A stretch of DNA of 64,000 bases from Sanguinoderma infundibulare (taxonomy: Eukaryota; Basidiomycota; Agaricomycetes; Polyporales; Polyporaceae): positions 1,984,001 to 2,048,000 of the forward strand of contig JAVLRN010000004.1 in assembly GCA_032821775.1 (NCBI GenBank), read 5' to 3'. The notes below the pieces were generated by a model. That model was not told where the DNA came from. It saw only the letters and a list, made by a program, of their open reading frames with translations, and did not search any database. Positions 24,367 through 44,349 of the stretch are shown here, in pieces (the stretch's first letter is position 1; every line of letters starts with the position of its first letter). Position numbers and translations under genes: made by a program.

Positions 24367-26289
24367 TCATGGTGTTAAGGTTCTTAGATTTTCAAGTATC
24401 GTAAAGTTCAGTCCAATAGTTTCAAGAGTCTGTATCGTAAAGATATCATTTATCATCCTTGTCAGTAGCAGAGAGTATAAAGCGAGTGTGTATGTGTGGA
24501 GCAAACTTGTTGGCAGTGTGGAAAGCGGTGATAAGCTTCTTGGCTTTGTCCGTACGAAGTTCATCTGCATCTGATGGAACCCATTCGTGATCGGCACATG
24601 TACGTCCACACCATTGAACGAGGTAATGAACTTTACGAGCACGATCGGACCCTTGTACAATGTTTGATTCCAAGATTGCTTCAACTTCCCATTCAGGTTC
24701 TAGAAGAGTGGGTACTTCTTGACTAGCTTTGGCTTGATTTGGAAATTCAGGGTCTCATGCAGGGGTTAACAACACTTTGTTAAACACGGGGTGTTTGAGT
24801 TTCCACTTGGGTGGTAATTCTAGACAATATGCACTAGCTCCGATCTTCTCAGCTATCTGAAAAGGGCCATAGTGCTTATCCTCTAGCTTCTTGTTGGGAC
24901 GATCAGTGGGAAAGTCTCGTGCGTCTATGTATACTTTATCACCTATCTTGTATTCCCGTGCGGGATGTCGATGCTTATCATAGTGTCGCTTCATAGCGCC
25001 CTGTGCTATCTCCAGCGCTTGCTCGGCCTGCTTCCCAATGCATTGCATTTGCTCAGCAAACTGCTTGGCAGACTCGTTAACGCCATCCTGTAATGTCTCG
25101 ACTCCAGTGTTGGGGTGATGACTATGAGTCATGAAGAAAGGGGACATCCCTGTGGATGCTTGTACATGACATCGGTAAGCGAACTCAGCTAATGGTAGCC
25201 ATTCGACCCAATCATCCTGCCTGTAATTGATGAAGATCCACAGATATGTCTGGATCTCCTGATTCATGCACTCAGTCTGGCCATCAGTTTGGGGATGGTA
25301 GGTGGTGCTAGGATTGCCTTCTATCCCTAACTGACAATAGACCTTTTTGGTAAAGGATGACACAAGTGTGGGACCTCAGTCTGACCATATGCGCTTAGGC
25401 AAGCTGTGGAGAATGACCACATGTTTGATAAAGAGTCGAGCTTGTCCTTCCGAGTCTAGCGTCTTTGAGCAGGGAATAGCAATGTAGTCCTTTGACTTCA
25501 TATCGACGAAGACTAAGATGGCATCATGTCCATTGCAGTTGGGGAGTCCAGTCATATAGTCCATGGTAACGAATTGCCAGTTCTGATCGGGAATGGGATT
25601 GGGATTGAGTGGTGCGGCACATGGTTGTCGATCGATTTTAACACACTGACATGTGTGGCATCCAGTGACATACTTGATTACATCTTTCCGAATGGAAGGC
25701 CACCAATAAGATCTTGAGATTAGATCTTGTGTCTTGACTGCACCTGGATGTCCAGCTGCGATCAAATCATAGTGTGATGCAATGACATGTCCATGGAGTT
25801 CTGAGTGATTTGGAATGACCATCCTCCCTCTCCTGTAGATTAAGCCATCCTTGGCTAATTCCCAATCATTGTCCTTTCCTATTTTCTCAACAACAGATCA
25901 GTCATAAAGTTTAACGTGTGTCAAACACATTTCCTTTATATTATGTGCGCCGTCTATTGTATGAGAAGCTGCAAACCAGTGTTCTTTGAGCATAGTGAAG
26001 TCATTGAACATGGGACCTGTCTCATGGTCCACACATCTAGACAGTGCATCTACTTTACCCATAGTATGACCTGGTTTATGAATTAACTTGAAATGGTAAT
26101 TCAAGAGAATAGTTGACCATCATGCTTAACGAGCATTTAGTTGTTGCGGTTTATGGAAATATTCAAGATTCTTGTGGTCATTATGAATCTCAAATTCACA
26201 TGCATTCTGGAGGAAATGATGCCACTCCTGAATTGCGGTGATAACTGACAACATCTCTCTATCCCAAATCTCATAATTGCATTGTGCGG
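24367..26289 (-). pseudogene. GypB RNase H end, integrase and chromodomain
   Basis: In minus-strand order: RNase H tail (NYEIWDREMLSVITAIQEWH, then LLNYHFKLIHKPGHTMGKVD and ALSRCVDHE). Integrase zinc finger (HPGAVKTQDLISRSYWWPSI with TCQCVKIDRQPC). DDE core (VTMDYMTGLP and, after a TGA, the GPTLVSSF and TDGQTECMNQEIQTYLW blocks). Last, a chromodomain (ESNIVQGSDRARKVHYLVQW, then EWVPSDADE). Chromodomain integrases belong to chromoviruses and can direct insertion to marked chromatin. Stops at 26127-26129 (TAA), 26121-26123, 25898, 25376 and 24755 (TGA) fit CAA, TGG or CGA codons changed by transitions. GypA cuts the frame at GCGG (26286-26289). Confidence 0.9.
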
Positions 26290-27279
26290 TGATACACTAT
26301 CCCAGGGCCTGTGTACAGTCAGGACGACCGAGGGCTAAGGGAGGCGAGGTCGGAGCGACGTCGCCGGTGCGGAGGGCGAGTACGGTCTCGAGTTCCCTTT
26401 GGTCGCGATCGTAACCAGTGCCGAGGAGAAGAGAGGGGAAAGAGCGTGTGGTGTCGAAGGTCGAAAGTCGCGGTAAAAGTCGCGCGACGAGTCGCTGTCG
26501 CTGTCGCAAATCGGTCGATCGGTGGTCGCTGTCGCAAGTCGCAATCGCAGTCGCTAGCTACACCCGACAGAGGACGATGTCGAGTCGCACTTGCTCATCG
26601 GAGAAATGAGAGGTAAAGGATGGGGGTCCAAGATTGTCTGCCCAAACGGCAACGAGTGGGGTTAAGTACATCGGTAACCGGTAGCTACACGCGACGCCCA
26701 TAGCCTAGCCTGCCTCGCGGTGGCGAGCGATCACAAAACCAGCGTCGGAAACCCTCCGGAACTCCAGCGATCGGCGCGCGACCGCGACCGGATTGGGCGA
26801 CCACCGTCGGCTTGTCTTGGCGGATCGCGATCGCTGTCGCGCAGTCGCGCGACTCGTCGGTTTCCGGTTGTCGCGACCCGTACCTGCTGCATAAGTAACC
26901 TTTTGTGAGGGACGATCTGCGACCAGTCGCGCGACGCGACGGAGAGAGCAACTGTGTGACTTAACTTGTGGCCCGCCGCCGTGCGACCGTAGGGACGGTC
27001 GGGGACAGGCCGAGTCGCGACACCGATCGTGGCCGAATACTTTTGGTACCCTTCGACGGCCTAGTCTTGGTGCGGCGGCATCGCACGTGCCCGGCTTCTT
27101 CGGCTCTCGTCGGTACCGGACCCGGTTAACAGGCCGGGCCGCCACCACGTGTGTCCGAATCGCGCAGCCCAGAGACGCCAACGAGCCGGCAGCCGCCGAG
27201 ACGTCGGTCGAGTCACCTCGGTCGTCCGAATGGAGCAATTGCGTCGGGCTCCGCGGTCGGAAGCGTCGGGTGCGCATCA
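26290..27279 (-). repeat. GypA 3' LTR (outer)
   Basis: 990 bp, TGATGCGC...GTATCA on the minus strand. The purine tract AGGGGGAGG (27280-27288, minus strand) adjoins it. Confidence 0.94.
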
Positions 27280-27538
27280 CCTCCCCCTCACTGGGATCTC
27301 GACCGTCCTCGGTCGCCGCGAGGAAGCTGCGTGGTACTGGTGCCGTCGCCGCGCGATCTTCTCTTCTCGGCCACTTGACAGACGGCGATCCTCGCTAGAC
27401 GCGCTTCTCGCGCTTCTCGACGAAAACGGTAACCCTTCGACCCGTCGCGCGACAAAAGACCGCCCCGAACTGGTGATCCCGCGGCTCCAGGCGTGCGATG
27501 GGGGTAGGCCCAGGATGCTGGCGCCGCCATCGCGCGTC

Positions 27539-27546
27539 ACATAAGA
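27539..27546 (+). promoter_or_regulatory. TATA-like site before the unit 2 antisense gene
   Basis: ACATAAGA about 92 nt before the ATG at 27631. The surrounding block GCGCCGCCATCGCGCGTCAC is nearly identical before the other copy. Function is inferred from position and conservation. Confidence 0.35.
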
Positions 27547-27630
27547 GCCGTCGCCTGGTGGGTCTTCGTCCGTGCTCCCCTCCAACCTCGCCCCTCGGTT
27601 CTTCTTCCTCTCCTCGTCTCACCATCTCCC

Positions 27631-29869
27631 ATGTCCGACCCCAAAGGCAAGTCCCGCGCCACCGGCGACGACACCTCCCAGGTCGCGCGCGACGGCGCCA
27701 AAGCCAACCTCGACATCCTCCTCGACTACTTGGACGGGAACCCCCCAGAGACCGACGACGACCGCGAGGCGGGACTCCAAAACGCGTCGGACAACCTGGT
27801 ATGTCGTCTGTCGCTGTGTCCCTCCATGTTCAGGCTGACTTCGTTTTCTCGTCGCAGGACGCTTGGCTCGGTGCAGGAGCGGACGCCGACGCGGTCGCTG
27901 CCGTCGCCGACCGCGTTGTCTTGTCGTTCGCGGACTGGTTCAGCTCGGTCGCACACGCGTGGCCGTCCTGGCTCAGCCCCATCCTCCGGGAGGGATACCT
28001 GCGCCTGGCCGCCCGTCAGATCGCCGATGCCCAACGCGTCGCCCGGAAGGCCGACGTGATGGCCAAGGCGCGCGAGCGCGCCGCCAAAAAGGCCGCCCGC
28101 CAGGCCGCTCTTCCTCCCATGCCCGACGTCCTCGCCGGCGTCGCCGCCCCTCCTCCTCCTCCGTCCTCTGCTGCCAAGTCGCAGCACCCTTCCGCCGCCG
28201 TCGCCGTCACCACGTCCTCCCAGCACTCCTCCGCTGCCGTTGCCGCGACTCCTGCCCCGGTGTCGTCCGCGTCGCGCTCGGGCGCTGTCGCTGCCGACGC
28301 CGTCGCCGGCCAGGCTCCTGAGTCGCCGTCCGCCGAGTCGCCGCCGCCCCGCGTTCGCCCTCGCGTTTGCCGCAAGCGCGGCCTGGTGGATCGCAGCTCC
28401 GTGGAGTCGGCCGAAGTCGCCGGGGAGAAGGCCGCGCCGCCCAAGAAGACGCGCCGCGATCCAGAGGTCGCTGGTGCCGTCGTCGCACCGCCCGCGCTGG
28501 CGCGCCCCGCCCCCATCGAGCTCGGTTCCTCCGAAGACGAACCCCGTCGGCCCGAGATCCCCAAAGTCGAGCTGGGGAAGCAGAAGTCGGCAGCCGACAC
28601 TCAACCGCGGCCCGCGTCGCCTCCTCGCCCAGACCCCGCGCTGTCGGCGGTAAGTGACTTGTCGCCGCTCTTTCCCCCTTTGTCGCTGCTGATCGCTGTC
28701 GCAGTGCGACCGCTGCTCCGGCTACGCCCGGATCGAGTGCGTCCTCCGGCGTGGGGAGGTTCGGTGCGAAAAATGTCGCAAGGACAAGAAGGGCTGCGAG
28801 TACGACTCGCAGCGGTACAGCGAGTGGTTTGACGACTCCAAGCTCAAGCGCGGTAAGTCGCCCAGCCCCTCCTATCGCCGCGACCGCTGACCTTGTTCCA
28901 GGTCGCATGGCCGTCTGCCCGTCGCTCCACCAAGTCGAGCGGGGCAACGCAAAGGGGTGGGAGCTCGCCGCTGATGGCTCCATCGTCGCGGTCGCTCCTC
29001 CGGACATCGAGGGCCCGGCCGTCGCCGACCCTCCCCCCAAGGCTCCAAAGCCCCGCAAGGCCAAGAAGCCGGCGCCCGCTGTCGCCGGCCCTCCTCCTGC
29101 CGCGGGTCCTTCCACGCGTCGCGCCGCGGCGGTCCCTGGGCCTGTTGCTGGTGCTGCGACCCGTCGCGCCGGCGACGCTCTCCCTCCCGTCATCAGCCCC
29201 GAGACGCGTCGCATCCTCGACGCTCATGTGCCTGTCGCGGTCCCTTCCTCGCGTGTCGCCCACGCTCCTCCCCCCGCCGCTGGTCCTTCGTCTCGCCCTG
29301 CCGCGCCGATCCCTGCCCATCCTCCTCGGCCGGCCTACGCCACGGGCTTCCGCATCCCCACGCCGACTATGCGCCTCCGTCGCCAACTCGCCGGGGAGGG
29401 CTTCCCTCTCCTCGCGTCCTCTGCCAACCGGCACGTCGCTGGCCTCGGCGGCGCGACCGCTGGACTGGGCGCCGACGACCTCGCCGGTGCTGGTCTGTCG
29501 GAGGACCAGCAGACGTACATCCGTGCCCTCCGAGCGGAGAACGCCTTCATCGCGGGTCGCATTGAGGTCCTGCTGGAGCTCCAGCAGTACCTGCATGAGC
29601 TAGAGCTCATCGCGACTGGGAAGGAGTGGGGCGCCGACGACTACGAGGCCGACAACTACGACGAGCACGAGCGCGAGCCCACTAGTCGGGGGGGCGATGA
29701 CGACGACGACGATGACGCGTCATACGTCCCGTTGGAGGACGAGCGGGAGCCGGTCGTCCAGGCGCCTGTCGCGCAGGGGCCCGTCGCAGAGGCGCCAGTC
29801 GCAGAGGAGCCTGTCGCTGAGCCGTCGGAAGGCCAGGAGGACGCGTTGAATGGCGAAGGGGACGAGTAG
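27631..29869 (+). CDS. Antisense Zn2Cys6-like protein of GypA, unit 2 copy
   Basis: Four exons 27631-27798, 27858-28649, 28705-28852, 28902-29869, 691 residues. Introns of 59, 55 and 49 nt have GT(A/T)AGT- or GTATGT-type donors and CAG acceptors. Exon 1 starts MSDPKGKSRATGDD, acidic and short. Exon 2 has a conserved block (DAWLGAGADADAVAA, WFSSVAHAWP), then Ala/Pro/Ser-rich sequence and a basic RPRVCRKRG patch. Exon 3 has cysteines 321, 324, 332, 341, 344, 351: C-X2-C-X7-C-X8-C-X2-C-X6-C, close to the fungal binuclear zinc cluster. Exon 4 has a conserved block (TGFRIPTPTMRLRRQLAGEG) and a helical EVLLELQQYLHELE before an acidic tail. It lies between pol and the 3' LTR, convergent with pol. 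DNA binding or control of the element is inferred only. It looks intact. Confidence 0.82.
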
Positions 29870-30403
29870 GTGGAGTCCAGTCGCGCCGTGGTCACACCAC
29901 GTCGGACACTGATTTTCTTCCCAGTTTTCTTTCTTGAACTTGCATGTGTATGTAGGCGCGCTCTCTTCCCGTCTCGTCGCTAGTTTTCTTGCTGTATGTC
30001 GTATGTCGCCGTCGCTATCTCGGTCGCAGTATCGCAGTCGCTATCGCAGTGTCGCAGTCGTTATCGCAGTGTCGCAATCGCTGGTCGCAGTCGTCTTCGC
30101 TATCTTGTCGCCTGTAGCTTATATCCGTCAATAATAATATCTCTCCTTTGGTTCTAGACGCGTGAATGACAAAAGTATTTCCCCGAGGGAAAGGCTCAGC
30201 GTGGAATCCTTCATCGCCAGAAAACCCTCGCCATCGCGACAAAGCCACGATGGAAAATCGGTCGCAAAGGTGCGTCCGAGGTCGCAAAGAATATAAACGA
30301 AAGACTATGAAGTGGCGATTGGGGGGGGTATGCGAAAGATGAAAAGAGCGCAATATGGAAGATATGGAAGCGGATCACAAATGAAAACCGATACTCAGCT
30401 CGA

Positions 30404-32623
30404 CTAGTCCGTGTCGCCCACCCCGTCGCTGCCGTTCAGCGATATCGCATCGCCAGTCGGACGATCGTCCTCGACACCCGCGTCGTCGGCGTTCTTCATG
30501 TCCTCGAACCGCTTTTGCGAGATGTCGAGGAGCTCGTCGGCGATGCCGATTGATTGTCGCGCGAGGTAGGGGAGGAGTCGGAAGGCCGCGACCGGTTGGT
30601 GAAAGACCGTTCCATCGAGTTCGCAGATGATGTACGCTCCCCCGCGGTTGCGGGTGAGGACGACAAGCGGCCCGAGGTATCGTGGTCGCATCTTGCGGTT
30701 GAGGGCCTTCTCGATCTGCGTGTGTCGGAGGAGGACAAGGTCGCCGCGTTTGAAGTCGAAGTCGCGGATGGTTGTCGCGTGGTCGCGCTCGAACTTGTAC
30801 GCTGCTCGAAGTCGCGCTCGGTAGACGTCGGACTGGAGGTCGGCGATCTGGTCTTGCCGCTTCTGGAGCGCAGTCGCGCGCTGCGTGATGAGATCGGTCG
30901 TTGACAGGATCGAGTCGGGCGGTGGGAGCAGATAGGTCGCTTCGCCGATGTCGAATGGCAGGATCGGATGACAACCTGTAGCCGCGAAGTATGGTGAGCA
31001 GCCCATGCGACGTCGCGTAGTTACCCTTTCTGCCCAGAAGGCGAAATGAGCGACTTGCGACCACTTCGTCTCGTCGCCGTCGGCGGCCTTGAACAGAACC
31101 TGTCGCACGTCGAAGTGGGGTCGCTCGACGATACCGTTCGCCCGCGAGTTGTAACCGCTGATTCGGATATGTCGGAGGTGATACTTGCGTGCGAGGTAGC
31201 CAGCCGCTTTGACGAAAGCCGCGCCGTTGTCGGTGACGATCTCTGCGAGGCCACCCCAGCGACAGATGACGTCTTGGAACAGCCAGTCGCCGAGGGTCTT
31301 CTCGGTCTCGACGCGGAGCATGCGCCACTCCGGGTAGTGCGAGATCGCGCAGCGCGCTTGGACGATGTACTTGAAGCCGCCGGAGGTGGGCATGTGCATG
31401 GTGTCGATGTGGACTCGCGCGAACAACGGTGCGGGTGTCGCGACCGTCGGCGGGATAAGGACCTGTCGCGTCTGTCTCGTCTGGCAGAGATGGCAAGTGC
31501 GAACGTACCAAGTGACGTCTTCACGGAGGGACGGCCACCAGAATCGCTCCGCGATGAACTGCAACGTCGCATAATTGCCGCGATGACCTATGTCGTCGTG
31601 CGCCTGTCGGAGGATCGCGAGTCGCTGGCCGAGGCCGACTACGAGCTTGTGTGCGCCGTGCGAGTCCTTTCGCCACAGTCGGTCGCCGTCGACGAAGTGC
31701 TGCTGGCAGTACTTGATAAACTGCGGGTACGCCTTGTCGGAGATGTCGCTTGGTTGTCGGAGGTCGCGGAGCCACCTCTTGACCTTGTCGAGTCGCTCGT
31801 TCGCTCGCCGAGTGAAGTCGGAAGTCGGAATGTCGCTCGACGTGGTCGCAGTGTCGCTTGTCGGTTCCTGGTCGGTCGGTCCCTCCCCCTCACTGAGATC
31901 CCGACCGTCCCCGGTCGGAGATGCGATCGTGAAAAGTTGCAGGGGAGAGGCGCGTTGTCGCGGTCGTGTCGGCAGCATCTGGTGCAGGAAGCCGTGGACT
32001 TTGTCGATCCAGTCCTCGAAGCCGTCGTCGTCGTCGCGCGGCTCGTCGCCCGGTTGTGATGGTCGCCGCGACAACCCGTCGGGCCCGTGCGACGTTCCAG
32101 GGACGTGCACTAGAGTGAAGTGGAACGTTAGTATCGCGACGATCCAACGGTTAATGCTAGCGCTCGGAGACATGTCAGGGTTCTGGAGCATGCCCTGAAT
32201 GTATCGCGCGTCGACCTCGACGACGAGGTTTCGGACACCGATCAGGTAGACCTTGAGGTTCCGCAGGGCGCGATAGAGGCCGTAGATCTCGAGCTTCGGT
32301 TGCGAGAATCGCGCCTCCCTGTCGTTGAGCGTTATTGATCCGAAGCGACTGTAGTACCGCTTGCGCGGGTCGTCGATGTCGCACTGGCAGAGGTGGAAGC
32401 CGACCGCGATGTAGGAGGTATCGACGGCGAGGATGACGGCCGCGCCCGACTCGTAGTCGATCGCGCGGAGCGCCGGCGACTCGATGACCGCCTTCTTGAG
32501 GTCCTCCTGCGCACGGAGTTGCTCGTCGCCGAACTCGAAGGGGACGTCCTTCCGTGTGAGCTTCACGAGTGGCCAGGCGCGCTTCGCGAAGTTTCGAATG
32601 AAAAGTCGCAGGACGCCGACCGT
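30404..32623 (-). pseudogene. GypA unit 2 pol, 5'-truncated
   Basis: Pol from the middle of the RT connection region (TVGVLRLFIRNFAKRAWPLV) through RNase H (AVDTSYIAVGFHLCQCD), integrase and C-terminus, nearly identical to 36823-39042 of unit 1. The reading frame runs on into the middle LTR and opens at an LTR-derived ATG (32878), so the 824-codon ORF has an artificial N-terminus. It lacks the RT catalytic YIDD, protease and gag. The junction is at 32623/32624 after GACCGT. Confidence 0.92.
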
Positions 32624-33609
32624 TGATACACTATCCCAGGGCCTGTGTACAGTCGGGACGACCGAGGGCTGAGGGAGGCGAGGTCGGAGCGACGTCGCCG
32701 GTGCGGAGGGCGAGTACGGTCTCGAGTTCCCTTTGGTCGCGATCGTAACCAGTGCCGAGGAGAAGAGAGGGGAAAGAGCGTGTGGTGTCGAAGGTCGAAA
32801 GTCGCGGTAAAAGTCGCGCGACGAGTCGCTGTCACTGTCGCAAATCGGTCGATCGGTGGTCGCTGTCGCAAGTCGCAATCGCAGTCGCTAGCTACACCCG
32901 ACAGAGGACGATGTCGAGTCGCACTTGCTCGTCGGAGAAATGAGAGGTAAAGGGTGGGGGTCCAAGATTGTCTGCCCGAACGGCAGTGACAGGGGTTAAG
33001 TACACTGGTAACAGTAGCTACGCCCGACAGCGACGGACTAGACTGCCTCGTGTCGACTAGCGATCATAAAACCAACGTCGGAAACCCTCCGGAACTCCAG
33101 CGATCGGTACGCGACCGCGACCGGATTGGGCGACCACAGTCGGCTTGTCTTGGCGGGTCGTGATCGCTGTCGCGCAGTCGCGCGACTCATCGGCTCCCGG
33201 TCGTCGCGACCCGCACCTGTCGCATAAGTAATCTTTCGTGAGGGACGGTCCGCGACCCATCGCGCTGCGCGACGGAGAAGGCAACTGAGTGACTTAACTT
33301 GTGGCCCGTCACTGTGCGACCGTGTGGTCAGTCGGGGACGGGCCAAGTTGCGACGCCAGCAGTGGCCGAGTACGTTCGGTATCTTCGACGGTCTAGGCTT
33401 GGTGCGGCGTCATCGCACGTGTCCGGCTTCTTCGGCTCGCTTCCGTACCGCACCTAGCCGGCCGACCGGACCGCACCACGTGTGCCCAGGTATTGTAACC
33501 AAAGGCGCCAGCGCGCCGGCAACGGCCGGAAAGTCGGTCGAGTCACCTCGGTTATCCGAATGGGGCCATCGCGTCGGTTTCCGCGGTCGGAAGCGTCGGG
33601 CGCGCATCA
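32624..33609 (-). repeat. GypA middle LTR (diverged subfamily)
   Basis: 986 bp with the same ends. The first 375 bp on the plus strand (U5 side) are almost identical to the outer LTRs, while the remaining U3 side is clearly diverged. A purine tract (AAGGGGGAGG, minus strand, from 33610) adjoins, so it is the 3' LTR of unit 1. Confidence 0.93.
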
Positions 33610-33870
33610 CCTCCCCCTTACTGGAATCTAGACCGTCCTCGGTCGCCGCGAAAGGACCATCGTGCCAGAGGTGCCGTCGCCGCGCGATCTTCTCTTCTCG
33701 ACCGTTTGACAGGCGGCGACCTGCCCTGGACGTGCTTTTCGCGCTTCCCGACGAAAACGGTAATCCTCTGACCTGCCGCGCGACAAAAGGGCGTCCCGAA
33801 CTGGTGATCCCGCGACTCCAGGCATGCGATGAGGGTAAGGCCCGGGATGCTGGCGCCGCCGTCGCGCGTC

Positions 33871-33878
33871 ACATAAAG
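33871..33878 (+). promoter_or_regulatory. TATA-like site before the unit 1 antisense gene
   Basis: ACATAAAG lies 85 nt before the ATG at 33956, in the block GTCGCGCGTCACATAA, which is conserved with the unit 2 copy although neighbouring sequence has diverged. Confidence 0.4.
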
Positions 33879-33955
33879 GCCGTCGCTCGGTGGGTCTTCG
33901 TCTGTGCCTTCCTCGCCTCTCTTTCCTTCCTCCTCGCTTCGCCCCATCGCCTCCC

Positions 33956-36274
33956 ATGTCCGATGCTAAAGGCAAGTCCCGCGCCACCGGCGACGACACT
34001 ACCCGGGTCGCGCGCGACGGCGCTAAGGCCAACCTCGATATCCTCCTCGACTACCTGGACGGGAGCCCCCCGGAGACCGACGACGACCGCGAGGCCGGTC
34101 TTCAAAATGCGTCGGATAACCTGGTACGTCGCCTGTCGCCGCGACCCTCTTGTTCAGGCTGAACCCGTTTCCTTGTCGCAGGACGCCTGGCTCGGTGCGG
34201 GGGCGGACGCCGACGCGGTCGCGGCCATCGCCGACCGCGTCGTTCTGTCGTTCGCCGACTGGTTCAGTTCGGTCGCGCATGCGTGGCCGGCCTGGCTCAG
34301 CCCGATCCTCCGAGAGGGGTATCTGCGCTTGGCCGCCCGGCAAGTCGCCGACGCCCAGCGCGTCGCCAGGAAGGCCGACGTGATGGCTAAGGCGCGCGAA
34401 CGCGCCGCCAAAAAGGCCGCCCGCCAGGCCGCACTCCCTCCCATGCCCGACGTCCTCGCCGGCGCCGCCGCTCCCCCTCCCTCGCTCCCGCACTCCCCCG
34501 TCGCGATGTCGCGACCGACGTCGCAACGCTCCGCCGCCGTCGCCGCCCCTATCGCCGTCCTCCCGTCCTCCCAACCGTCCTCCGCTGCCGTCTCCGCCGC
34601 CCTCGCCGCTCCGCCGGACGCCCCTGGCGCGATCGCGACCGGTTCGTCTGCGTCGCGTGCCGCTGTCGCCGCCGCCGCCCCGCCTCCCGGGTTGCCCACG
34701 ACCGGGGTGCCGTCCATCAGACCCCGCCCTCGCCCCCGTCGCAAGAGGGCGGTCACCGATCGTAGCTCGGTGGAGTCGGGTGAGGTCGCCGGCGAGAAGG
34801 CCACGCCTCCCAAGAAGGCGCGACCTGACCCCATCGTGGTCGGGTCGTCGGAGGAGGAGCCGCGTCGCCCGGAGACCCCGAAGGTCGAGCTGGGGAAGAG
34901 GAAGTCGGCGGCCGACACCCAGCCCCGACCGTTGCCGCCCCCTCGCCCTGACCTGAGTCTGCCGGCGGTAAGTACTTCCTTGTCGCCTCCCACCTTCGTA
35001 GCGACTGATCGCTGTCGCAGTGCGATCGCTGCTCGGGTTATGCGCTGATCGAGTGCTTCCTCCCTCGGGGGTCGGGGCGCTGCGAGAAGTGCAAAAACGA
35101 CAAGAAGGGGTGTTACTTCGGTGACCAGTCCTACGGCGACTGGTTCGATGATTCCGGCCGCCCGCGTGGTAAGTCACCTAGTCGCTCTCCCCGTGTCGCC
35201 GTCGCTGATCTTATCCCAGGTGGTATCGCTGTCCGCCCCTCTGCCCACATCGTCGAGCAGGGCCTGTCCAAGGGGTGGGAGATCGATCGCGACGGCACCA
35301 TCGTCGCAGTCGCGCCCCCTGGGTCCGGTGGCCCCCGGGTCGCCGAGGCCCCTCAAGCCGCTCCGGTCGCCGAGGTCGCCGACGCCCCCAAGGCTCCCAA
35401 GGCTCCCAAGCCGCGGAGGGCCAAGAAGCCCGTCGCCGCCGTCGCTGGCCCTCCTCCCGCCACTCCCGCGGTTCCTTCCCCTCGCCGCGCTGCTGTCGCC
35501 GCCGTTCCTCCGCCCGTCGCCAGTTCCTCGTCGCGTCGCATCGCCGAGTCTCCCCTTCCCGTCGCCGGTCCCGCCACTCTGCGCCTCCTCGGCATCCCTT
35601 CGCCCGCCGCGGGTCCTTCATCGCGCCCCGCGGCGCCGATCCCCGCGCACCCCTACCGGCCGCCCTACTCCACGGGCTTCCGCATCCCGTCGCCGACTAT
35701 GCGCCTTCGCGAGCGGCTGGCTGGCGAAGGGTTCCCGATGCTCGCCGTTACCGCCAACCGGCGCATCCCTGGCCTGGGTGGCGCGACCGCGGGCTTGGGT
35801 GTCGACGACCTCGCTGGGGCCGGTTTTTCCGAGGACCGGCAGACGTACATCCGCGCGCTCCGCGCGGAGTCCGCCTTCGTCGCTGGTCGCATCGAGGTGC
35901 TGTTGGAGCTCCAGCAGCATTTACACGAGCTGGAGATGGTCGCGACCGGGACGGACTGGGGCTCGGAGGACCACGAGCACACAGGCGACGATCGCGAGCC
36001 CGGCGGGCGGGGAAGCGACGATGACGGTGATGACTCGTCGTATGTCCCGTCGGGTGACGAGCGGGCGCGGGTCGCGGTAGCGCCAGTCGCGCAGAAACCC
36101 GTCGCGCCAGAGCCGGTCGCGCAGGAGCCCGCCGCGCAGGAGCCCGCCGCGCAGGAGCCCGTCGCGCAGGAGCCCGTCGCGGATGGGCCCGTGGCTGAGC
36201 CTGTCGCACCGGCGCCGATCGCTGAGCCGTCGGAGGGCCAGGAGGACGAGTTGGATGGCGAAGGGGATGAGTAG
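33956..36274 (+). CDS. Antisense Zn2Cys6-like protein of GypA, unit 1 copy
   Basis: Four exons 33956-34123, 34182-34967, 35021-35168, 35220-36274, 718 residues; introns 58, 53 and 51 nt in the same places and phases as the unit 2 copy. Start MSDAKGKSRATGDD. Basic patch RPRPRPRRKRA in exon 2 could be a nuclear signal. Exon 3 cysteines 319, 322, 330, 339, 342, 349 keep the C-X2-C-X7-C-X8-C-X2-C-X6-C spacing though the residues between differ (CDRCSGYALIEC versus CDRCSGYARIEC). Exon 4 has the TGFRIPSPTMRLRERLAGEG block, the EVLLELQQHLHELE helix and a tail with VAQEP/AAQEP repeats and DELDGEGDE. Introns lie on the strand opposite to the genomic RNA, so reverse transcription would not remove them. 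Function unknown; a transcription factor-like role is a guess from the cysteines. Confidence 0.83.
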
Positions 36275-36822
36275 GTTGAGTCGGGTCGCGCCTTGGTCGC
36301 ATTCTTTTCTTGGTACTGATTTTCTTGCAGCGTTCTATCCTGGACTTGTACGTGTATGTAGTAATGCCTGTCGCTTGGTCGCCTCGTCGCTGCCGTGTTT
36401 TCTTGTCGCTCTCGTCCTTTTCTTGTCGCTCTCGTCGCCGTCGCCGTAGTCCCAGTGTCGCCGTCGCAGTATCGCAGTATAGTCGTCGCTGTATCGCAGT
36501 CGCAGTCGCAGTCGCTGTTCGCTGTCTCCTATAGTGTACAATGTCATCAATAATACCAACTTGTCCCACCATAACCCGAGCGATTAACAAGAAAATATTT
36601 CCCGAGGGAAAGGCTCAGCGTGAAATCCTTCATCGCCAGAAAACCCTCGCCATCGCGACAAAGTCGCGATGGGAAATCGGTCGCAAAGGTGCGTCCGAGG
36701 TCGCAAAGAAAATAAACGAGAGACTATGCAGTGGCGATTGGGGGGGGTATGCAAAAGATGAAAGGGGCGCAATATGGAAGATATGGAGGCGGGTCACAAA
36801 TGAAAACAGATACTCAGCTCGA
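36275..36822. other. Convergent 3' region between antisense gene and pol
   Basis: No ORF is supported. It has GTCGCAGT/TCGCTGTCGC low-complexity runs (36420-36530) and a block near 36620-36730 that is almost identical in unit 2. Both transcripts, sense and antisense, should end or overlap here. Confidence 0.6.
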
Positions 36823-39800
36823 CTAGTCCGTGTCGCCCATCCCGTCGCTGCCGTTCAGCGATATCGGCCCGCTAGTCGGGCGATCGTCCTCGACACCCGC
36901 GTCATCGGCGTTCTTCATGTCCTCGAACCGCTTTTGCGAGATGTCGAGGAGCTCGTCGGCGATGTCGATCGATTGTCGCGCGAGGTAGGGGAGGAGTCGG
37001 AAGGCCGCGACCGGTCGGTGAAAGACCGTCCCGTCAAGTTCGCAGATGACGTACGCTCCCCCGCGGTTGCGGGTGAGAACGACAAGCGGCCCGAGGTATC
37101 GCGGTCGCATCTTGCGGTTGAGTGCCTTCTCAATCTGCGTGTGTCGGAGGAGGACAAGGTCGCCGCGTTTGAAGTCGAAGTCGCGTATGGTCGTTGCGTG
37201 GTCGCGCTCGAACTTGTACGCTGCTCGAAGTCGCGCTCGGTAGACGTCGGACTGGAGGTCGGCGATCTGGTCTTGCCGCTTCTGGAGCGCAGTCGCGCGC
37301 TGCGTGATGAGATCGGTCGTTGACAGGATCGAGTCGGGCGGTGGGAGCAGATAGGTCGCTTCGCCGATGTCGAATGGCAGGATCGGATGACAACCTGTAG
37401 CCGCGAAGTATGGTGAGCAGCCCATGCGACGTCGCGTAGTTACCCTTTCTGCCCAGAAGGCGAAATGAGCGACTTGCGACCACTTCGTCTCGTCGCCGTC
37501 GGCGGCCTTGAACAGAACCTGTCGCACGTCGAAGTGGGGTCGCTCGACGATACCGTTCGCCCGCGAGTTGTAACCGCTGATTCGGATATGTCGGAGGTGA
37601 TACTTGCGTGCGAGGTAGCCAGCCGCTTTGACGAAAGCCGCGCCGTTGTCGGTGACGATCTCTGCGAGGCCACCCCAGCGACAGATGACGTCTTGGAACA
37701 GCCAGTCGCCGAGGGTCTTCTCGGTCTCGACGCGGAGCATGCGCCACTCCGGGTAGTGCGAGATCGCGCAGCGCGCTTGGACGATGTACTTGAAGCCGCC
37801 GGAGGTGGGCATGTGCATGGTGTCGATGTGGACTCGCGCGAACAACGGTGCGGGTGTCGCGACCGTCGGCGGGATAAGGACCTGTCGCGTCTGTCTCGTC
37901 TGGCAGAGATGGCAAGTGCGAACGTACCAAGTGACGTCCTCACGGAGGGACGGCCACCAGAATCGCTCCGCGATGAACTGCAACGTCGCATAATTGCCGC
38001 GATGACCTATGTCGTCGTGCGCCTGTCGGAGGATCGCGAGTCGCTGGCCGAGGCCGACTACGAGCTTGTGTGCGCCGTGCGAGTCCTTTCGCCACAGTCG
38101 GTCGCCGTCGACGAAGTGCTGCTGGCAGTACTTGATAAACTGCGGGTACGCCTTGTCGGAGATGTCGCTCGGTTGTCGGAGGTCGCGGAGCCACCTCTTG
38201 ACCTTGTCGAGTCGCTCGTTTGCTCGCCGAGTGAAGTCGGAAGTCGGAATGTCGCTCGACGTGGTCGCAGTGTCGCTTGTCGGTTCCTGGTTGGTCGGTC
38301 CCTCCCCCTCACTGAAATCCCGACCGTCCCCGGTCGGAGATGCGATCGTGAAAAGTTGCAGGGGAGAGGCGCGTTGTCGCGGTCGCGTCGGCAGCATCTG
38401 GTGCAGGAAGCCGTGGACTTTGTCGATCCAGTCCTCGAAGCCGTCGTCATCGTCGCGCGGCTCGTCGCCTGGTTGTAATGGTCGCCGCGACAATCCGTCA
38501 GGTCCGTGCGACGTTCCAGGGACGTGCACTAGAGTGAAGTGGAACGTTAGTATCGCGACGATCCAACGGTTAATGCTAGCGCTCGGAGAAATGTCAGGGT
38601 TCTGGAGCATGCCCTGAATGTATCGCGCGTCGACCTCGACGACGAGGTTTCGGACACCGATCAGGTAGACCTTGAGGTTCCGCAGGGCGCGATAGAGGCC
38701 GTAGATCTCGAGCTTCGGTTGCGAGAATCGCGCCTCCCTGTCGTTGAGCGTTATTGATCCGAAGCGACTGTAGTACCGCTTGCGCGGGTCGTCGATGTCG
38801 CACTGGCAGAGGTGGAAGCCGACCGCGATGTAGGAGGTATCGACGGCGAGGATGACGGCCGCGCCCGACTCGTAGTCGATCGCGCGGAGCGCCGGCGACT
38901 CGATGACCGCCTTCTTGAGGTCCTCCTGCGCACGGAGTTGCTCGTCGCCGAACTCGAAGGGAACGTCCTTCCGCGTGAGCTTCACGAGTGGCCAGGCGCG
39001 CTTCGCGAAGTTTCGAATGAAAAGTCGCAGGACGCCGACCGTGCCTATGAACGCGCGGATCTCCGATATGTTCCCGCACGGTCCCCAGTTGACGATGAGG
39101 GCGACGCGCGACTGTTCGGGTTGTCGCCCGATCGGGGTGCATCGCTGGCCGATGACGATGTTCTCGATGTCGATGGGCATCGACTTCGGCCCGGAGTAGG
39201 TGCCGCCGGCGTGGCTCATGCGTGTGACGATGCGATTCTGGTTGTCGAAGTGCTCCTTGACGAAGCGACGAACGCCGGGGTTGCGCGGGATGGTCTCGTA
39301 CTTGCCGTCGCGGTCGCGATAGTCGGACTTCGGTCCCTTGCCGGGGACGTCGTCGATATACGGTACTGTCCACTCCGGGATCTCGGGCTGCAAGATGTAA
39401 GTGACGTCGTCGTGAAAGATAGGTACCGAGTTGCACCACCCCATCGGGAGGGTGCAGTGTCGCAACGCGCCGAACGGCGTCTGGAAGGTCGTGAGGTCGC
39501 GCGACGACTTGGCGATCAGTCGCTCGTCGTAGCCGACGTAGAGGTCGTACATCGAGCCGCACGGTCGCCCGCCGAACTGCTCGGCGAGATAGTCGGGCGT
39601 CGGGGTTACGCCCGAGTGCGCGATCGTGACCTTGTTGAGCGGCTCGAGGCTGTGGACGATGCGCGGCTTCCCGTCCTTTTTCGCGACGCAGAACCAGCGA
39701 CCGCGATACGACGAATTCGACGGCTCGTACACGCCGGCGGCGATCTTGCGCTTGATGATGTCGCAGACCTCCTTGTAGAGACCCGGCGGGATTGGGATGT

Positions 39801-40641
39801 TCTTCTGGACCCACGGCGTGTGCGGTACGACCGGAAAATCGACCGGTGGGAAGAACTCGGGTTTGAAGCAGCCGCGCTCCTCGTCGGTCCATGCGAACGC
39901 CTCGTTGTGGACGCACATGAAGTAGTGGAGTAGCTTGCGCTCCTCGGGCCAGAGAAAGTCGGGTCGCAGCTTCTTATCGAGAGCCTCCATACGTTCGCGG
40001 GTGTAGCGACCGGTCGGGACGAAGTCAGGGGGATGATCGGGGAGGATCGGCATGTTCGCGAGCGGGTCGCCGGTGATGTTGCGCACGACGCGAAACTGTT
40101 CGGGGCACGAGCCTAGGACAGGTCGCACCTTGCGCGCGACCGGTTTGTACTTCTTCTTGGTGACGAGGCCTTTCGTAACGGGGTCGCGCGTGGTGAGGAA
40201 AACGTTCGCGGGGGTATCTTGCGATCGCGGCGCGAAGTAGCCGCGACCGTTTTTGGTCGGAAAAGAGAATACGAAAGAAGGTGAGGAAGAACAGGGGCGC
40301 ATAAAGGAGAGAGAGAGAGCGATGTCGAGAGAGGGAGACGGAGGAGGAACTGGGGACGCGAGGAGAGAGAAAGAGTCCGAGGTCGCAGTGGTCGCCGGTG
40401 TCGCCGCGCTTGTCGCACGACATTTTTCGCTAGTAGTTGTGAGATTAGTTGAGAAATAGACGGCCGCGCGATCGTGTAGTTGGTCGCAGGCCGATAAATA
40501 GAGAGCTGGGATAGGAATAGAGTCGTCAGCGATGCGGGTATATGCAGAGATAATGGGGCCCCCTGGTGTGTCATCAATGACGAGGGCGTAGTCGCCGTCG
40601 GGCGACCCGTCCTCAAACGGATTCGGAGCGCTTGCTGTCAA
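36823..40641 (-). CDS. GypA pol: reverse transcriptase, RNase H, integrase
   Basis: Intact 1272-codon ORF. RT blocks: FVPTGRYTRERMEALDKKL, NSSYRGRWFCVAKKDGKPRI, VHSLEPLNKVTI, TTFQTPFGALRHCTLPMGWC, and catalytic YIDD in VPYIDDVPGKGP. RNase H: VILAVDTSYIAVGFHL and the TSHGPDGLSRRP linker. Integrase: H-H-C-C (HDDIGHRGNYATLQF, CHLCQ), D-D-E (HIDTMHM, VTDNGAAF, RANGIVERPH), then a GPY/F-like end (RPRYLGPLVVLTRNRGGAYV). No chromodomain. It overlaps the gag ORF by 29 nt in the +1 frame relative to gag, so expression by frameshift or reinitiation is likely. By the self-insertion model its 3' part may derive from the second subfamily. Confidence 0.93.
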   Translation of the reverse strand: MTASAPNPFEDGSPDGDYALVIDDTPGGPIISAYTRIADDSIPIPALYLSACDQLHDRAAVYFSTNLTTTSEKCRATSAATPATTATSDSFSLLASPVPPPSPSLDIALSLSFMRPCSSSPSFVFSFPTKNGRGYFAPRSQDTPANVFLTTRDPVTKGLVTKKKYKPVARKVRPVLGSCPEQFRVVRNITGDPLANMPILPDHPPDFVPTGRYTRERMEALDKKLRPDFLWPEERKLLHYFMCVHNEAFAWTDEERGCFKPEFFPPVDFPVVPHTPWVQKNIPIPPGLYKEVCDIIKRKIAAGVYEPSNSSYRGRWFCVAKKDGKPRIVHSLEPLNKVTIAHSGVTPTPDYLAEQFGGRPCGSMYDLYVGYDERLIAKSSRDLTTFQTPFGALRHCTLPMGWCNSVPIFHDDVTYILQPEIPEWTVPYIDDVPGKGPKSDYRDRDGKYETIPRNPGVRRFVKEHFDNQNRIVTRMSHAGGTYSGPKSMPIDIENIVIGQRCTPIGRQPEQSRVALIVNWGPCGNISEIRAFIGTVGVLRLFIRNFAKRAWPLVKLTRKDVPFEFGDEQLRAQEDLKKAVIESPALRAIDYESGAAVILAVDTSYIAVGFHLCQCDIDDPRKRYYSRFGSITLNDREARFSQPKLEIYGLYRALRNLKVYLIGVRNLVVEVDARYIQGMLQNPDISPSASINRWIVAILTFHFTLVHVPGTSHGPDGLSRRPLQPGDEPRDDDDGFEDWIDKVHGFLHQMLPTRPRQRASPLQLFTIASPTGDGRDFSEGEGPTNQEPTSDTATTSSDIPTSDFTRRANERLDKVKRWLRDLRQPSDISDKAYPQFIKYCQQHFVDGDRLWRKDSHGAHKLVVGLGQRLAILRQAHDDIGHRGNYATLQFIAERFWWPSLREDVTWYVRTCHLCQTRQTRQVLIPPTVATPAPLFARVHIDTMHMPTSGGFKYIVQARCAISHYPEWRMLRVETEKTLGDWLFQDVICRWGGLAEIVTDNGAAFVKAAGYLARKYHLRHIRISGYNSRANGIVERPHFDVRQVLFKAADGDETKWSQVAHFAFWAERVTTRRRMGCSPYFAATGCHPILPFDIGEATYLLPPPDSILSTTDLITQRATALQKRQDQIADLQSDVYRARLRAAYKFERDHATTIRDFDFKRGDLVLLRHTQIEKALNRKMRPRYLGPLVVLTRNRGGAYVICELDGTVFHRPVAAFRLLPYLARQSIDIADELLDISQKRFEDMKNADDAGVEDDRPTSGPISLNGSDGMGDTD

Positions 40642-42847
40642 TGCGAAATCGAAAGGTCGGCTGTCCTCGCGGTCGCGTCGGGATGGTCATGACTTGTCGC
40701 GTGTTCGGGCATTCGAGTGTGATCGTCTGGTCTTCATTGTTGAAGTTCTTGATGACGCTCCGCGTCAGGACGTCGAAGGGGCGACCGAGGAGCAAGTCGT
40801 AGGGCGCATTGCGAATGACGTGAACCTGGAGGTACAGCGTAATACCGCCGACGAGGAAGGGCACATTGCGAACAATACCTAGCGACGGGTCGACCGCGCC
40901 GTTCGCCGACTGCATATACAGCTGTACCGTCGGGTCGTAGGAGAGCGCCGCGTGGTGGCAGAGGCCCTCGGAGATCGAGACGATTTGCGCACCGCCATCC
41001 AAGGTTCCCTCGACGTCGATCTTACCATCGAGACAACCGACGATCGAGCGAAGCGCATACGACTCCTTTGCGACCACGAGCGGCTGCGGCTCTTGGCCGG
41101 GGCCGAGTCGCGAGAGGTAGACGTCGTACGGGTCGGGGACTACCAGCGCACCCGGCTCCAGAGGTTCGCCGCGACAGGACCGCGCAGTCGCGAGTTCGTC
41201 GTCGCTGGTCGCATCGGCGAAGGTGACTGTGCGCGGCTCGGTCGGTACGCGCTTTGGGGTGATTGCCTCGCGGAACTTGGCGCGCACGTCGGGAGCGATG
41301 CAGAGGAGCTCCTCGACAGAGAGCGTGATCGCCGGTGTCTTCATCGCGCGCGAGTAGACCTCATCGATCAACTTGGGCTGGTAGACCGGGACTGTGTTGC
41401 GATACGCTGGATCGCGCTCTTTACCGCTCGCTGGTCGCAGTGTTGCGCCGACATTGGTCGTCCGTGGCGGCGCATAAGTCGCGTCGCGGGCTCCCGCGAA
41501 CGGGTGCTCTGGCGCCGCTCCTTGTCGCGTGGCCGGGGTCGGTGGTCGCAGGATGGTGACCGGCCGTGCTGGCGCGGCCGCCACGGTTGCCTTGGTCGCG
41601 GCTGGGACCGACGCCCTCATTCCGGAACCGCTGGCGGTCGCTATCGTGGGGCTCCCGTCGGGAACCTCCTCGACTCTCGCTGCAGGTCGCGGTCGCCGGG
41701 GAGTGGTCGTGATCTCGACTCCGTCGAACTTCTCTCTTGCTTGGCGGAGGGTGAAGATTTCCTGCTCGAGTTGGGCGATGCGGTCGCTGGTCGCGTCAGT
41801 CGTCGGGGCCGCCGGTGCGACCTGGAAGAGGAGCTGGCCTACGGGCGCCGTCGCGTTGCGCCGGTGCCACTCGTAGGCGCCGTCGCGCATGGTCAGGCCC
41901 GGTAGGCTGCGCGGTACGAATTGCCCATTAGGCAAGACAACCTTCCCGTCGTTGTTCCGCGCAATGCGACCCGCATTGATGTCCTCGTCGACGAACCGGC
42001 AGGTGCGAACCTGGCAGCCCGCGTCACCGCAGTAGTGGCAGAAGCCCATCGGCGGCGGTCGCCCGTAATCGGCACGCTGTGGTGGTCCCGCCCCGGCACC
42101 ATTGTCGCGTATTGCCTGCGCCATCATTCGGAAGAAAGGCTCGACATCTTCCAGCTTGATACCTGTCGCTGTCGGAGTCGCCGTCGCCGTCGCAACCGCT
42201 GGTGCTACCGGCGTCGCCGTCGCTGTCGTCGACGTCCCGTGAAGCACGAATCGTGCCGCCTCGAGGACGTCTCGGAGGGCGTAGGGGTCGTCGGGGTGGT
42301 GGTCGACGAACTTGATCTGAAGTCGCTGAGCCACCTGATCCCATAGGGGCGGTCGAATGCCACGCGCGAAGAGTCGCGACTGTTCCAGTACCGACAATCG
42401 CTGGTGCTGTATCAAATAGGTAGTCATAACGAGGAAGTCCCGATGAAAACTGGAGAGTTCACCGAGCGTCGTGATCGGTGTCGCCGCGCAACCTGCGACC
42501 AGATTATCCACGTCGGCGACCGAGTACTTGCGAGCCTCATCCGCGCCGGGGTATAGCTCGGCCACGCTCGTCTTCCACTGTTCGAACGTGTACGCGTCCT
42601 CGTACGAGGGGAGCGACTCCCACAAATCGGCGACCTCGACCTCGAGATAACGAATCGCCCATCGTTTGCGTGGTCGGCCAGCGGCGACCTGGCACCTGTC
42701 GAAGAGCGCGTCGAGGTCTTGCCAAAAGCCACGCAAGGTTCTTGGTCGCTCGGGGTCGAATACCGGCGCAGTCGCGTGGTTGCGCGCGGGCATCGCGGGT
42801 GGCGGGTGCGCTGCTGGCTGCGGCGCTTGAAGATCGGGGGGATCCAT
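40613..42847 (-). CDS. GypA gag with zinc knuckle and protease-like domain
   Basis: 744 codons. The start region contains PPAMPARNHATAPVFDPERP and RTLRGFWQDLDALFDRC, typical of basidiomycete gypsy gag. The capsid part follows (AIRYLEVEVADLWESLPSYE, LGELSSFHRDF). A CCHC-like knuckle CHYCGDAGCQVRTC lies near residue 270. The region around residue 625 (VEGTLDGGAQIVSISEGLCH) aligns with retroviral-type aspartic proteases, but the triad reads D-G-G instead of D-T/S-G; the later LLLGRPF motif is present. Its C-terminus overlaps pol. The ATG at 42847 is the first of the frame; a GC-rich leader of about 500 nt precedes it. Confidence 0.9.
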   Translation of the reverse strand: MDPPDLQAPQPAAHPPPAMPARNHATAPVFDPERPRTLRGFWQDLDALFDRCQVAAGRPRKRWAIRYLEVEVADLWESLPSYEDAYTFEQWKTSVAELYPGADEARKYSVADVDNLVAGCAATPITTLGELSSFHRDFLVMTTYLIQHQRLSVLEQSRLFARGIRPPLWDQVAQRLQIKFVDHHPDDPYALRDVLEAARFVLHGTSTTATATPVAPAVATATATPTATGIKLEDVEPFFRMMAQAIRDNGAGAGPPQRADYGRPPPMGFCHYCGDAGCQVRTCRFVDEDINAGRIARNNDGKVVLPNGQFVPRSLPGLTMRDGAYEWHRRNATAPVGQLLFQVAPAAPTTDATSDRIAQLEQEIFTLRQAREKFDGVEITTTPRRPRPAARVEEVPDGSPTIATASGSGMRASVPAATKATVAAAPARPVTILRPPTPATRQGAAPEHPFAGARDATYAPPRTTNVGATLRPASGKERDPAYRNTVPVYQPKLIDEVYSRAMKTPAITLSVEELLCIAPDVRAKFREAITPKRVPTEPRTVTFADATSDDELATARSCRGEPLEPGALVVPDPYDVYLSRLGPGQEPQPLVVAKESYALRSIVGCLDGKIDVEGTLDGGAQIVSISEGLCHHAALSYDPTVQLYMQSANGAVDPSLGIVRNVPFLVGGITLYLQVHVIRNAPYDLLLGRPFDVLTRSVIKNFNNEDQTITLECPNTRQVMTIPTRPRGQPTFRFRIDSKRSESV

Positions 42848-43340
42848 CGCGAGCGACGAGAGTTCGCTGAGTGGTGTGAACGGGGAAACTTGTAGTGACG
42901 CTGTCGAGGGTGTCGCAGCGATATCCGGCGACGGCGGGAGGGGAACGTCTGTCCAGTAATCGGGCGAAGGAGGGAGTGGAACGTCTTCCCAGGGTTCTGG
43001 CGACGGTGGCAGGGGAAATTCGCCGGGAATCGCGCTCGGCGTCGCGCGTCTCGCTCTAGACCTAACCGTCGTGGAAGATGTCGCGGACGAAGAGTCGGAA
43101 GAAGAGGGTCTGTTATCGAGTGCGTCGATACCGCGATCGAGGGCACGAGAGAGGGAATAGAGTATGCGACTGTATCGGGCCTCCTCGCCGAGCTGAAGTC
43201 CAAGGTCGGTGACTCTATGCGCGCGAGCGACAAGTAGCTCGTGTGCGAGCGACGAACGCGAAGGAGTGGAAGGTGTCAGCGTGGCACTGTATGAGAGTTA
43301 CGGGATCGCACCAAAGGCGGAGGCGAGATCTATACTCCCC

Positions 43341-43356
43341 CTCGCGGTGGGCTCCA
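43341..43356 (-). promoter_or_regulatory. GypA primer-binding site
   Basis: TGGAGCCCACCGCGAG on the minus strand, 3 nt after the 5' LTR. It would pair with a tRNA ending GGTGGGCTCCA, which implies a U discriminator and a GCCCACC acceptor strand, so not initiator Met. tRNA-Cys is one candidate. The same site serves GypC at 58959-58977. Confidence 0.8.
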
Positions 43357-43359
43357 AAA

Positions 43360-44349
43360 TGATACACTATCCCAGGGCCTGTGTACAGTCAGGACGACCG
43401 AGGGCTGAGGGAGGCGAGGTCAGAGCGACGTCGCCGGTGCGGAGGGCGAGTACGGTCTCGAGTTCCCTTTGGTCGCGATCGTAACCAGTGCCGAGGAGAA
43501 GAGAGGGGAAAGAGCGTGTGGTGTCGAAGGTCGAAAGTCGCGGTAAAAGTCGCGCGACGAGTCGCTGTCGCTGTCGCAAATCGGTCGATCGGTGGTCGCT
43601 GTCGCAAGTCGCAATCGCAGTCGCTAGCTACACCCGACAGAGGACGATGTCGAGTCGCACTTGCTCATCGGAGAAATGAGAGGTAAAGGGTGGGGGTCCA
43701 AGATTGTCTGCCCAAACGGCAACGAGTGGGGTTAAGTACATCGGTAACCGGTAGCTACACGCGACGCCCATAGCCTAGCCTGCCTCGCGGTGGCGAGCGA
43801 TCACAAAACCAGCGTCGGAAACCCTCCGGAACTCCAGCGATCGGCGCGCGACCGCGACCGGATTGGGCGACCACCGTCGGCTTGTCTTGGCGGATCGCGA
43901 TCGCTGTCGCGCAGTCGCGCGACTCGTCGGTTTCCGGTTGTCGCGACCCGTACCTGCTGCATAAGTAACCTTTTGTGAGGGACGATCTGCGACCAGTCGC
44001 GCGACGCGACGGAGAGAGCAACTGTGTGACTTAACTTGTGGCCCGCCGCCGTGCGACCGTAGGGACGGTCGGGGACAGGCCGAGTCGCGACACCGATCGT
44101 GGCCGAATACTTTTGGTACCCTTCGACGGCCTAGTCTTGGTGCGGCGGCATCGCACGTGCCCGGCTTCTTCGGCTCTCGTCGGTACCGGACCCGGTTAAC
44201 AGGCCGGGCCGCCACCACGTGTGTCCGAATCGCGCAGCCCAGAGACGCCAACGAGCTGGCAGCCGCCGAGATGTCGGTCGAGTCACCTCGGTCGTCCGAA
44301 TGGAGCAATTGCGTCGGGCTCCGCGGTCGGAAGCGTCGGGTGCGCATCA
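43360..44349 (-). repeat. GypA 5' LTR (outer)
   Basis: 990 bp. It pairs with 26290-27279 by near-identity and by the GCGG duplication. Confidence 0.94.

Follow-up and report, generated by a model that had tools for sequence, protein, structure and literature searches.

In plants and fungi alike, retrotransposons repeatedly carry, on the strand opposite to gag-pol and between pol and the 3' LTR, a gene without known function. The locus studied here raises the question of whether one such gene, predicted to be spliced and to encode a Zn2Cys6-like protein, belongs to the gypsy element that carries it, what its product might do, and how two neighbouring copies came to differ. The window, meaning the whole 64,000-nucleotide stretch of DNA analysed (G000:C4:1984001-2048000), comes from a genome of 48.9 Mb in 87 contigs.

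Direct reading of the sequence confirmed both four-exon genes of the original prediction, together with their shared intron phases and exon lengths. Antisense gene copy 1 (W1, type I; 33956..36274, plus strand) has 718 codons plus stop in exons at 33956-34123, 34182-34967, 35021-35168 and 35220-36274 (168, 786, 148 and 1055 nt). Copy 2 (W2, type II; 27631..29869, plus strand) has 691 codons plus stop in exons at 27631-27798, 27858-28649, 28705-28852 and 28902-29869 (168, 792, 148 and 968 nt). The GT..AG introns measure 58, 53 and 51 nt in copy 1 and 59, 55 and 49 nt in copy 2, with phases 0, 0 and 1 in both, and exons 1 and 3 are of equal length between the copies. A search of donor and acceptor sites, with intron phases and the exon 3 start set in advance and the length of that exon left free, returned exactly one model per window copy. 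Over 23 loci (L054 lying outside the search) it yielded 16 models, 14 of full length and two shorter, and none at seven loci; exon 3 measured 148 nt in the best model at all 16, which cover three types. In copy 1 this exon (35021..35168, plus strand) encodes the cysteine array C-X2-C-X7-C-X8-C-X2-C-X6-C, and the same spacing is found in copy 2, as had been claimed. TATA-like elements on the plus strand precede both genes, CATAAAG at 33872..33878, 84 nt upstream of the copy 1 ATG, and CATAAGA at 27540..27546, 91 nt upstream of the copy 2 ATG. CATAA(A/G) was present in all seven of the cassettes (gene plus adjoining LTR half) inspected, representing four types. The gene would be transcribed from a putative promoter of its own beside the 3' LTR, antisense to gag-pol, and then spliced; since the genomic RNA would contain the introns reverse-complemented and thus without splice sites, they could persist through retrotransposition.

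A reading of the window copies as two tidy tandem elements was ruled out by the finding of a single composite with three LTRs (26290-44349), flanked at both outer ends by the same 4-bp direct repeat, GCGG. The outer LTRs, both type II and on the minus strand, form the 3' end (26290..27279, GCGG at 26286-26289) and the 5' end (43360..44349, GCGG at 44350-44353) of the composite and are 99.5% identical over 990 columns, the inner LTR (32624..33609, minus strand), which is of type I and serves as the 3' LTR of the copy-1 element, being 88% identical. A primer-binding-site-like TGGAGCCCACC lies just internal to the LTR at 43360..44349. Also on the minus strand are a gag-protease ORF (40613..42847), with a weak gag-asp_proteas match of 26.5 bits, under the Pfam cut-off of 28.2, and the pol of the copy-1 element (36823..40641, 1272 codons; Pfam matches to RNase H and integrase zinc-binding domains). 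A spacer (36275..36822, plus strand) extends from the antisense gene to the pol stop. The pol of the copy-2 element (30404..32623, minus strand) is truncated, ending exactly at the inner LTR, and is 98.4% identical to 36823-39042.

On our reading of the sequence, the host of the composite would be another gypsy-like sequence. In the simplest reading a type I element would have inserted into a type II pol, and a deletion via matching pol-gag stretches would have followed. The interval 41800-43359 is 98-99% identical to young type II elements and 96% to young type I elements. The copy-1 pol tail differs by 0.3-0.4% from young type I and by 2.9-3.3% from young type II elements; the copy-2 pol tail stands about 2% from young copies of both types alike, so local homogenisation between the two window pol tails is likely.

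Elsewhere in the window, direct repeats at 1532-2563 and 58976-60012 (91-96% identical, about 57.4 kb apart) are possibly the LTRs of a large nested element, and a Ty1/copia-type element with Pfam RVT_2, integrase core and GAG-pre-integrase domains occupies 20802-23702 on the minus strand. Two head-to-tail repeats of about 2 kb (82-91% identical) lie at 49722-53710, with a related stretch at 19512-19811; a long inverted repeat at 15160-16432 has 190-nt arms that are 92% complementary and further paired stretches inside; and an ORF of 981 codons at 7547-10492 encodes a HET (heterokaryon incompatibility) domain, which together with the shortness of the introns points to a fungal source.

With pol as the query against the genome contigs, the antisense gene was found at 29 of the 29 family loci that keep the pol 3' end, its C-terminal block lying immediately downstream of pol on the opposite strand. 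This count is a lower bound, 36 of 234 pol-query candidates having been scored, and at one of these loci, C4:3509799, the position of the pol end was taken from the pol and gene search of a second family. Two more matches to the C-terminal block (C12, C6) had no family pol alongside. No relative lacking the gene at this place appeared among the 29 pol 3' ends, and the proposal that the gene belongs to the element is upheld. In its place between pol and the 3' LTR, its orientation antisense to gag-pol and its occurrence in most copies, the gene family has the features of an aORF-3R. One apparently free-standing gene, at C13:568540 (L025), proved to be a decayed copy interrupted by an LTR.

A second gypsy family (locus L058), whose pol is 53-58% identical to the window pol, carries a related antisense cysteine-cluster gene near 12 of 12 pol tails (at least 66% identity), about 1 kb downstream and on the opposite strand; at one of these the C-terminal piece alone occupies the expected place and the remainder lies about 13 kb beyond. 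When the C-terminal blocks of both families were compared as profiles, the probability was 1.5%; the case for homology of their genes accordingly comes from place, architecture and the cysteine array, and not from the block. In a third, more distant gypsy (L059) no such antisense gene was found.

These surveys also bear on whether the gene might be a recently captured host gene without a role in the element, a reading that we disfavour as very improbable. Relatives of the second family's gene do occur apart from recognised gypsy pols: the L058 antisense-gene probe gave ten further matches with no matching gypsy pol nearby, clustered on C14, C8 and C2, and the one that was read (C14:26800-29300; L062 1-2501) is a cysteine-cluster gene with the canonical array C-X2-C-X6-C-X10-C-X2-C-X6-C and a duplicated C-terminal block. 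Against capture stands the gene's presence in all 29 copies and in the second gypsy family, at the same place and in the same orientation. In addition, 54 of the 55 matches to a type III cysteine-region probe fell within gene copies that the N- or the C-terminal probe also matched; the remaining one (C4:714525) had an E value of 0.11, and for the window's own gene type no relative in the host came to light.

The original prediction regarded the window genes as diverged copies of one gene; they are instead distinct gene types. Among the 24 of 29 cassettes that were read, at least four gene types occur on closely related pol backbones, with amino-acid identity down to 32%. The cassette tree, in which the cassette limits for types III and IV are approximate, contains six rows of type I, 11 of type II, four plus one subtype row of type III and two of type IV, with support of 100/100 for types I, II and IV and 100/97 for type III. 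At the amino-acid level, types I and II share 0.59-0.75 of their residues and type III shares 0.32-0.38 with each of the two; across these comparisons the C-terminal 504 nt of pol are 87.5-96% identical. All cassettes read except L054 (23 of 24) match the six-cysteine search pattern, and nine exon-3 rows picked from these 23 to span the types share, besides the six cysteines, L14, G17, K23, K29, G30, Y38, W41 and F42.

Synonymous divergence separates gene from pol in the same manner. Between types I and II the median gene dS is 0.685 (0.68 for W1-W2), set against pol-tail values of 0.047 for W1-W2 (the same over 739 codons, and possibly lowered by local homogenisation), 0.099 for W1-L040 and 0.091 for L039-L040, a 7- to 14-fold contrast. 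Between types I and III (W1-L047) gene dS is 1.06 and pol dS 0.155; within type I (W1-L050) the values are 0.087 and 0.109.

The change from similar to dissimilar sequence occurs at defined places. Compared with W2, L047 and L054, W1 is 89-100% identical across pol, save for one window of 77% near the L054 pol end, and 44-91% identical across the gene and U3, and the sequences become closely similar once more over the first 120-360 bp of the LTR. The right edge of the dissimilar block coincides with a small inverted repeat, TTTCCCGAGGGAAA, at 36598..36611: in W1 against L040, W2, L047 and L054 (types II, III and IV) there are 8-17 mismatches per 30 bp before it and 1 per 30 bp after it. The W2-L047 comparison changes at 36598-36611 too, and between types III and IV the right edge lies nearer the gene end. 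The left edge between types I and II falls within the inner LTR at 32984..33014: up to about LTR position 360 each 30 bp holds 0-3 mismatches, and each of the three following bins 6-9. Relative to types III and IV this edge lies about 120 bp into the LTR, and L054 has a second near-identical LTR patch at 240-330. The same-type control W1-L050 is 92-98% identical all along, and W1-L061 68-87% across gene, LTR and pol with one window of 59%; L047-L060 is less even (LTR and 5' side 74-87%, gene 87-98%, beyond the gene 86-94%). These abrupt drops in identity, one 3' of pol and the other within the LTR, point to an exchange, by recombination between elements with closely related gag-pol, of the antisense gene together with the upstream half of the LTR. 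In the pol tree (24 rows, two of them partial) type I needs at least three label changes and forms one clade in 0 of 200 bootstraps; when the monophyly of type I in pol was put to an AU test, p was 0.041 for the full set of six rows and 0.103 once the old row L061 had been left out, and taken alone the pol tree is moderate evidence for exchange.

As to how the block moved, recombination during reverse transcription of two co-packaged RNAs is the likely route. Strong-stop DNA would transfer to the partner RNA within R, which may be what the left edge records; U3 and the antisense gene would then be copied, and synthesis would switch back near the pol end. The gene and the adjoining U3 side of the LTR would in this way behave as one cassette moving among related gag-pol elements, and their linkage may reflect mere adjacency.

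Selection on the protein was assessed with pairwise dN/dS and with a shuffle that redistributes the substitutions at random and preserves base and CpG context. Between W1 and W2 dN/dS is 0.245, not near 1 (NG86; dS 0.681, dN 0.167, 654 codons), and 169 residues have changed where 285.3 +/- 7.7 would be expected; none of 2000 shuffles was as low, and 4 of 2000 were free of stops. For W1-L047 and W2-L047, too, no shuffle out of 2000 reached so low a count. The median dN/dS values within types, 0.42-0.49 (16 models), do not amount to strong selection, and once CpG context is kept in the shuffle the majority of young pairs lie close to neutrality, the shuffles as low numbering, out of 2000 each, 293 for W1-L050, 74 for W2-L056, 25 for L047-L060, 102 for W1-L038, 1638 for W2-L045 and 802 for W2-L040. 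Purifying selection is strong between types and weak or absent among young copies. The claim that both copies stayed under protein-level selection thus holds over the long term and between types, and among young copies such selection is weak. This pattern fits selection on a still-transposing lineage combined with neutral decay of single insertions. The greater intactness of the gene relative to pol was rejected as a sign of selection. Internal stops in the family's pol copies are mostly TGA, as CpG deamination of CGA codons in GCGAC words predicts, and would represent such decay.

Divergence of this kind might also arise if the gene were simply fast-evolving, with diversifying selection separating gene and U3 while pol stayed as it was. 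The types do differ most in low-complexity linkers, where windowed dN/dS between W1 and W2 reaches 0.86 (codons 180-240). However, synonymous sites and introns are equally diverged (gene dS 0.68 and introns 69-81% identical, against pol dS of 0.05-0.10), gene dS within a type does not exceed pol dS (W1-L050, 0.087 against 0.109), and the edges are abrupt and fall at the same site for W1 against three types. We accordingly disfavour this account as highly improbable and retain exchange of a cassette as the preferred one.

The original prediction described the product as Zn2Cys6-like, and membership in the canonical sense was not supported. Like the PF00172 regulators, the protein has six cysteines in two C-X2-C pairs and basic residues in the second half of the array; unlike them, it has few basic residues in the first interval, which is X7 rather than X6 in all 23 pattern-matching cassettes of the family, the remaining spacing fitting Zn2Cys6. 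PF00172 gave no match at E up to 10 with two exon-3 peptides and the L047 protein, and none at E up to 1 with copy 1; the 32 matches that the genome has at E up to 0.001 all lie outside these elements. AlphaFold modelled the cysteine exon poorly (mean pLDDT 55.4). By spacing and by Pfam, then, the predicted product is not a canonical Zn2Cys6 protein.

The antisense proteins showed no credible Pfam domain and no Pfam match to Transposase_28 (TRP28). For the N-terminal domain encoded by exon 2 the predicted structure (pLDDT 78.7) is helical and includes a long basic helix; it had no significant match in the PDB (best E 2.6), and no solved-structure relative was found (best E 0.61). Searches of a public protein set, possibly poor in fungal proteins, returned no relative of copy 1 (7990 candidates sharing most words were scored), of L047 region 310-560 or of L058 antisense ORF region 340-500, and a search of pol against viral contigs found nothing. 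The suggestion in the original prediction that many basidiomycete hypothetical Cys-cluster proteins may come from such elements gained no support from the three protein searches. The product would have a helical N-terminal region that includes a long basic helix, a six-cysteine array whose second half is basic, and a C-terminal block that is conserved. The cysteine array, the basic stretches and the linkage to U3 point to a DNA-binding role, and the protein is most likely a nuclear regulator that would bind the element's own LTR or DNA.

A candidate target for such a protein is suggested by the pentamer GTCGC, which occurs 295 times on the plus strand of the 18-kb composite and 116 times on the other, the flanks of the composite having 0.3-0.9 per kb. 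Set against dinucleotide shuffles, its frequency in copy 1 is raised 3- to 4-fold in the LTR, the gene, pol and gag; the spacer is the densest part, with an excess of about 11-fold (18 in 548 bp, shuffles 1.7). By reading frame the counts are 9/24/19 in pol and 28/4/5 in the gene. Types I, III and IV are similarly enriched, and the decayed L061 less so, though at 8 against 1.1 still above shuffles; in the type II gene region the strand counts, taken without shuffles, are 56 against 10. Because the word keeps its strand where the coding strand flips, the force behind it may act on DNA or RNA rather than on protein. Being common to all gene types, GTCGC does not track the cassettes.

One reading of this pattern is that the protein acts in anti-silencing in the manner of VANC, binding scattered GTCGC words and stripping silencing from the element, new types spreading once old ones are silenced. 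The excess over shuffles in coding and non-coding parts (L061 aside) and the strand that persists across pol and gene would suit it, as would the parallel, in the accessible parts of PMC5735166, with VANC21 motifs that are dense and in one orientation and with related VANCs that target different elements. The same word is present in all gene types, however, so that specificity does not co-vary with the protein; the second family has an antisense cysteine gene and yet no clear GTCGC enrichment (16 against 16.5 over 5.2 kb of L058, and 11 against 7.2 in its antisense region); and packaging, transcription or codon context are other possible causes of the word. We regard anti-silencing of this type as doubtful. 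A related proposal, likened to the swapping of recognition modules by other mobile elements, treats the gene and the U3 half as a specificity cassette, whose protein would recognise its own LTR together with GTCGC and either counter silencing or set LTR activity as gag-pol is kept; this we consider unlikely.

The joint movement of gene and U3 would also be expected if the gene were a self-limiting repressor, or gave rise to an antisense RNA, controlling its own LTR or that of a same-type rival, with cassette exchange as an escape from that control. The accessible parts of PMC7264820 consider regulatory roles for antisense transcripts and for antisense genes of the HTLV type. A role in RNA alone leaves the conservation of the protein between types unexplained, and control of this kind, by repressor or RNA, seems to us rather unlikely.

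We therefore consider it likely that the gene is a spliced antisense accessory gene owned by the element, that it probably encodes a nuclear DNA-binding regulator, and that it has moved together with U3 as a recombining cassette. One genome here offers at least four gene types on related gag-pol, clean breakpoints, a same-type control and protein-level selection, which makes it testable whether each protein acts on the U3 that accompanies it. The findings suggest that accessory genes of retrotransposons may evolve as exchangeable modules, in which case family trees based on pol would miss their history.

In the open-access papers searched, we found no report of a spliced antisense gene or a Zn2Cys6 gene in a fungal gypsy element, or of such modular exchange. 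What appears to be new is the presence of a cysteine array and of conserved introns, and the joint exchange of gene and U3 as one block. The comparison with VANC of Arabidopsis VANDAL elements is one of features, not of sequence homology. VANDALs are DNA transposons.

Antisense genes between pol and the 3' LTR are already known from Grande, Retand and Boty, according to the accessible parts of PMC11963269, PMC7264820 and PMC8365987. In the first two of these sources Retand TRP28 is predicted to bind DNA and Grande gene23 is described as nuclear and as having its own promoter. The window gene resembles the Grande and Retand genes in its place between pol and the 3' LTR, its antisense orientation and its presence in most or all copies (PMC11963269, PMC7264820, accessible parts); unlike them, it shows no Pfam match to TRP28/Transposase_28 and has three conserved introns, a six-cysteine array and exchange of gene with U3. 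In the accessible text of PMC11963269 'intron' occurs 0 times and 'recombin' twice, neither time concerning exchange between elements of one family. The gene brtn of Boty-like gypsy elements in Botrytis cinerea (Zhao et al. 2011, as mentioned in the accessible parts of PMC7264820 and PMC8365987) is likewise an extra antisense gene in a fungal gypsy element, a likeness drawn from these mentions and not from sequence. The present system resembles VANC, as described in the accessible parts of PMC5735166, in that the gene is borne by the element, a short word recurs densely along it in a single orientation, and the proteins are related but have different targets; it differs in that VANC21 motifs are mainly non-coding and family-specific, whereas GTCGC also lies in coding sequence and is common to all gene types.
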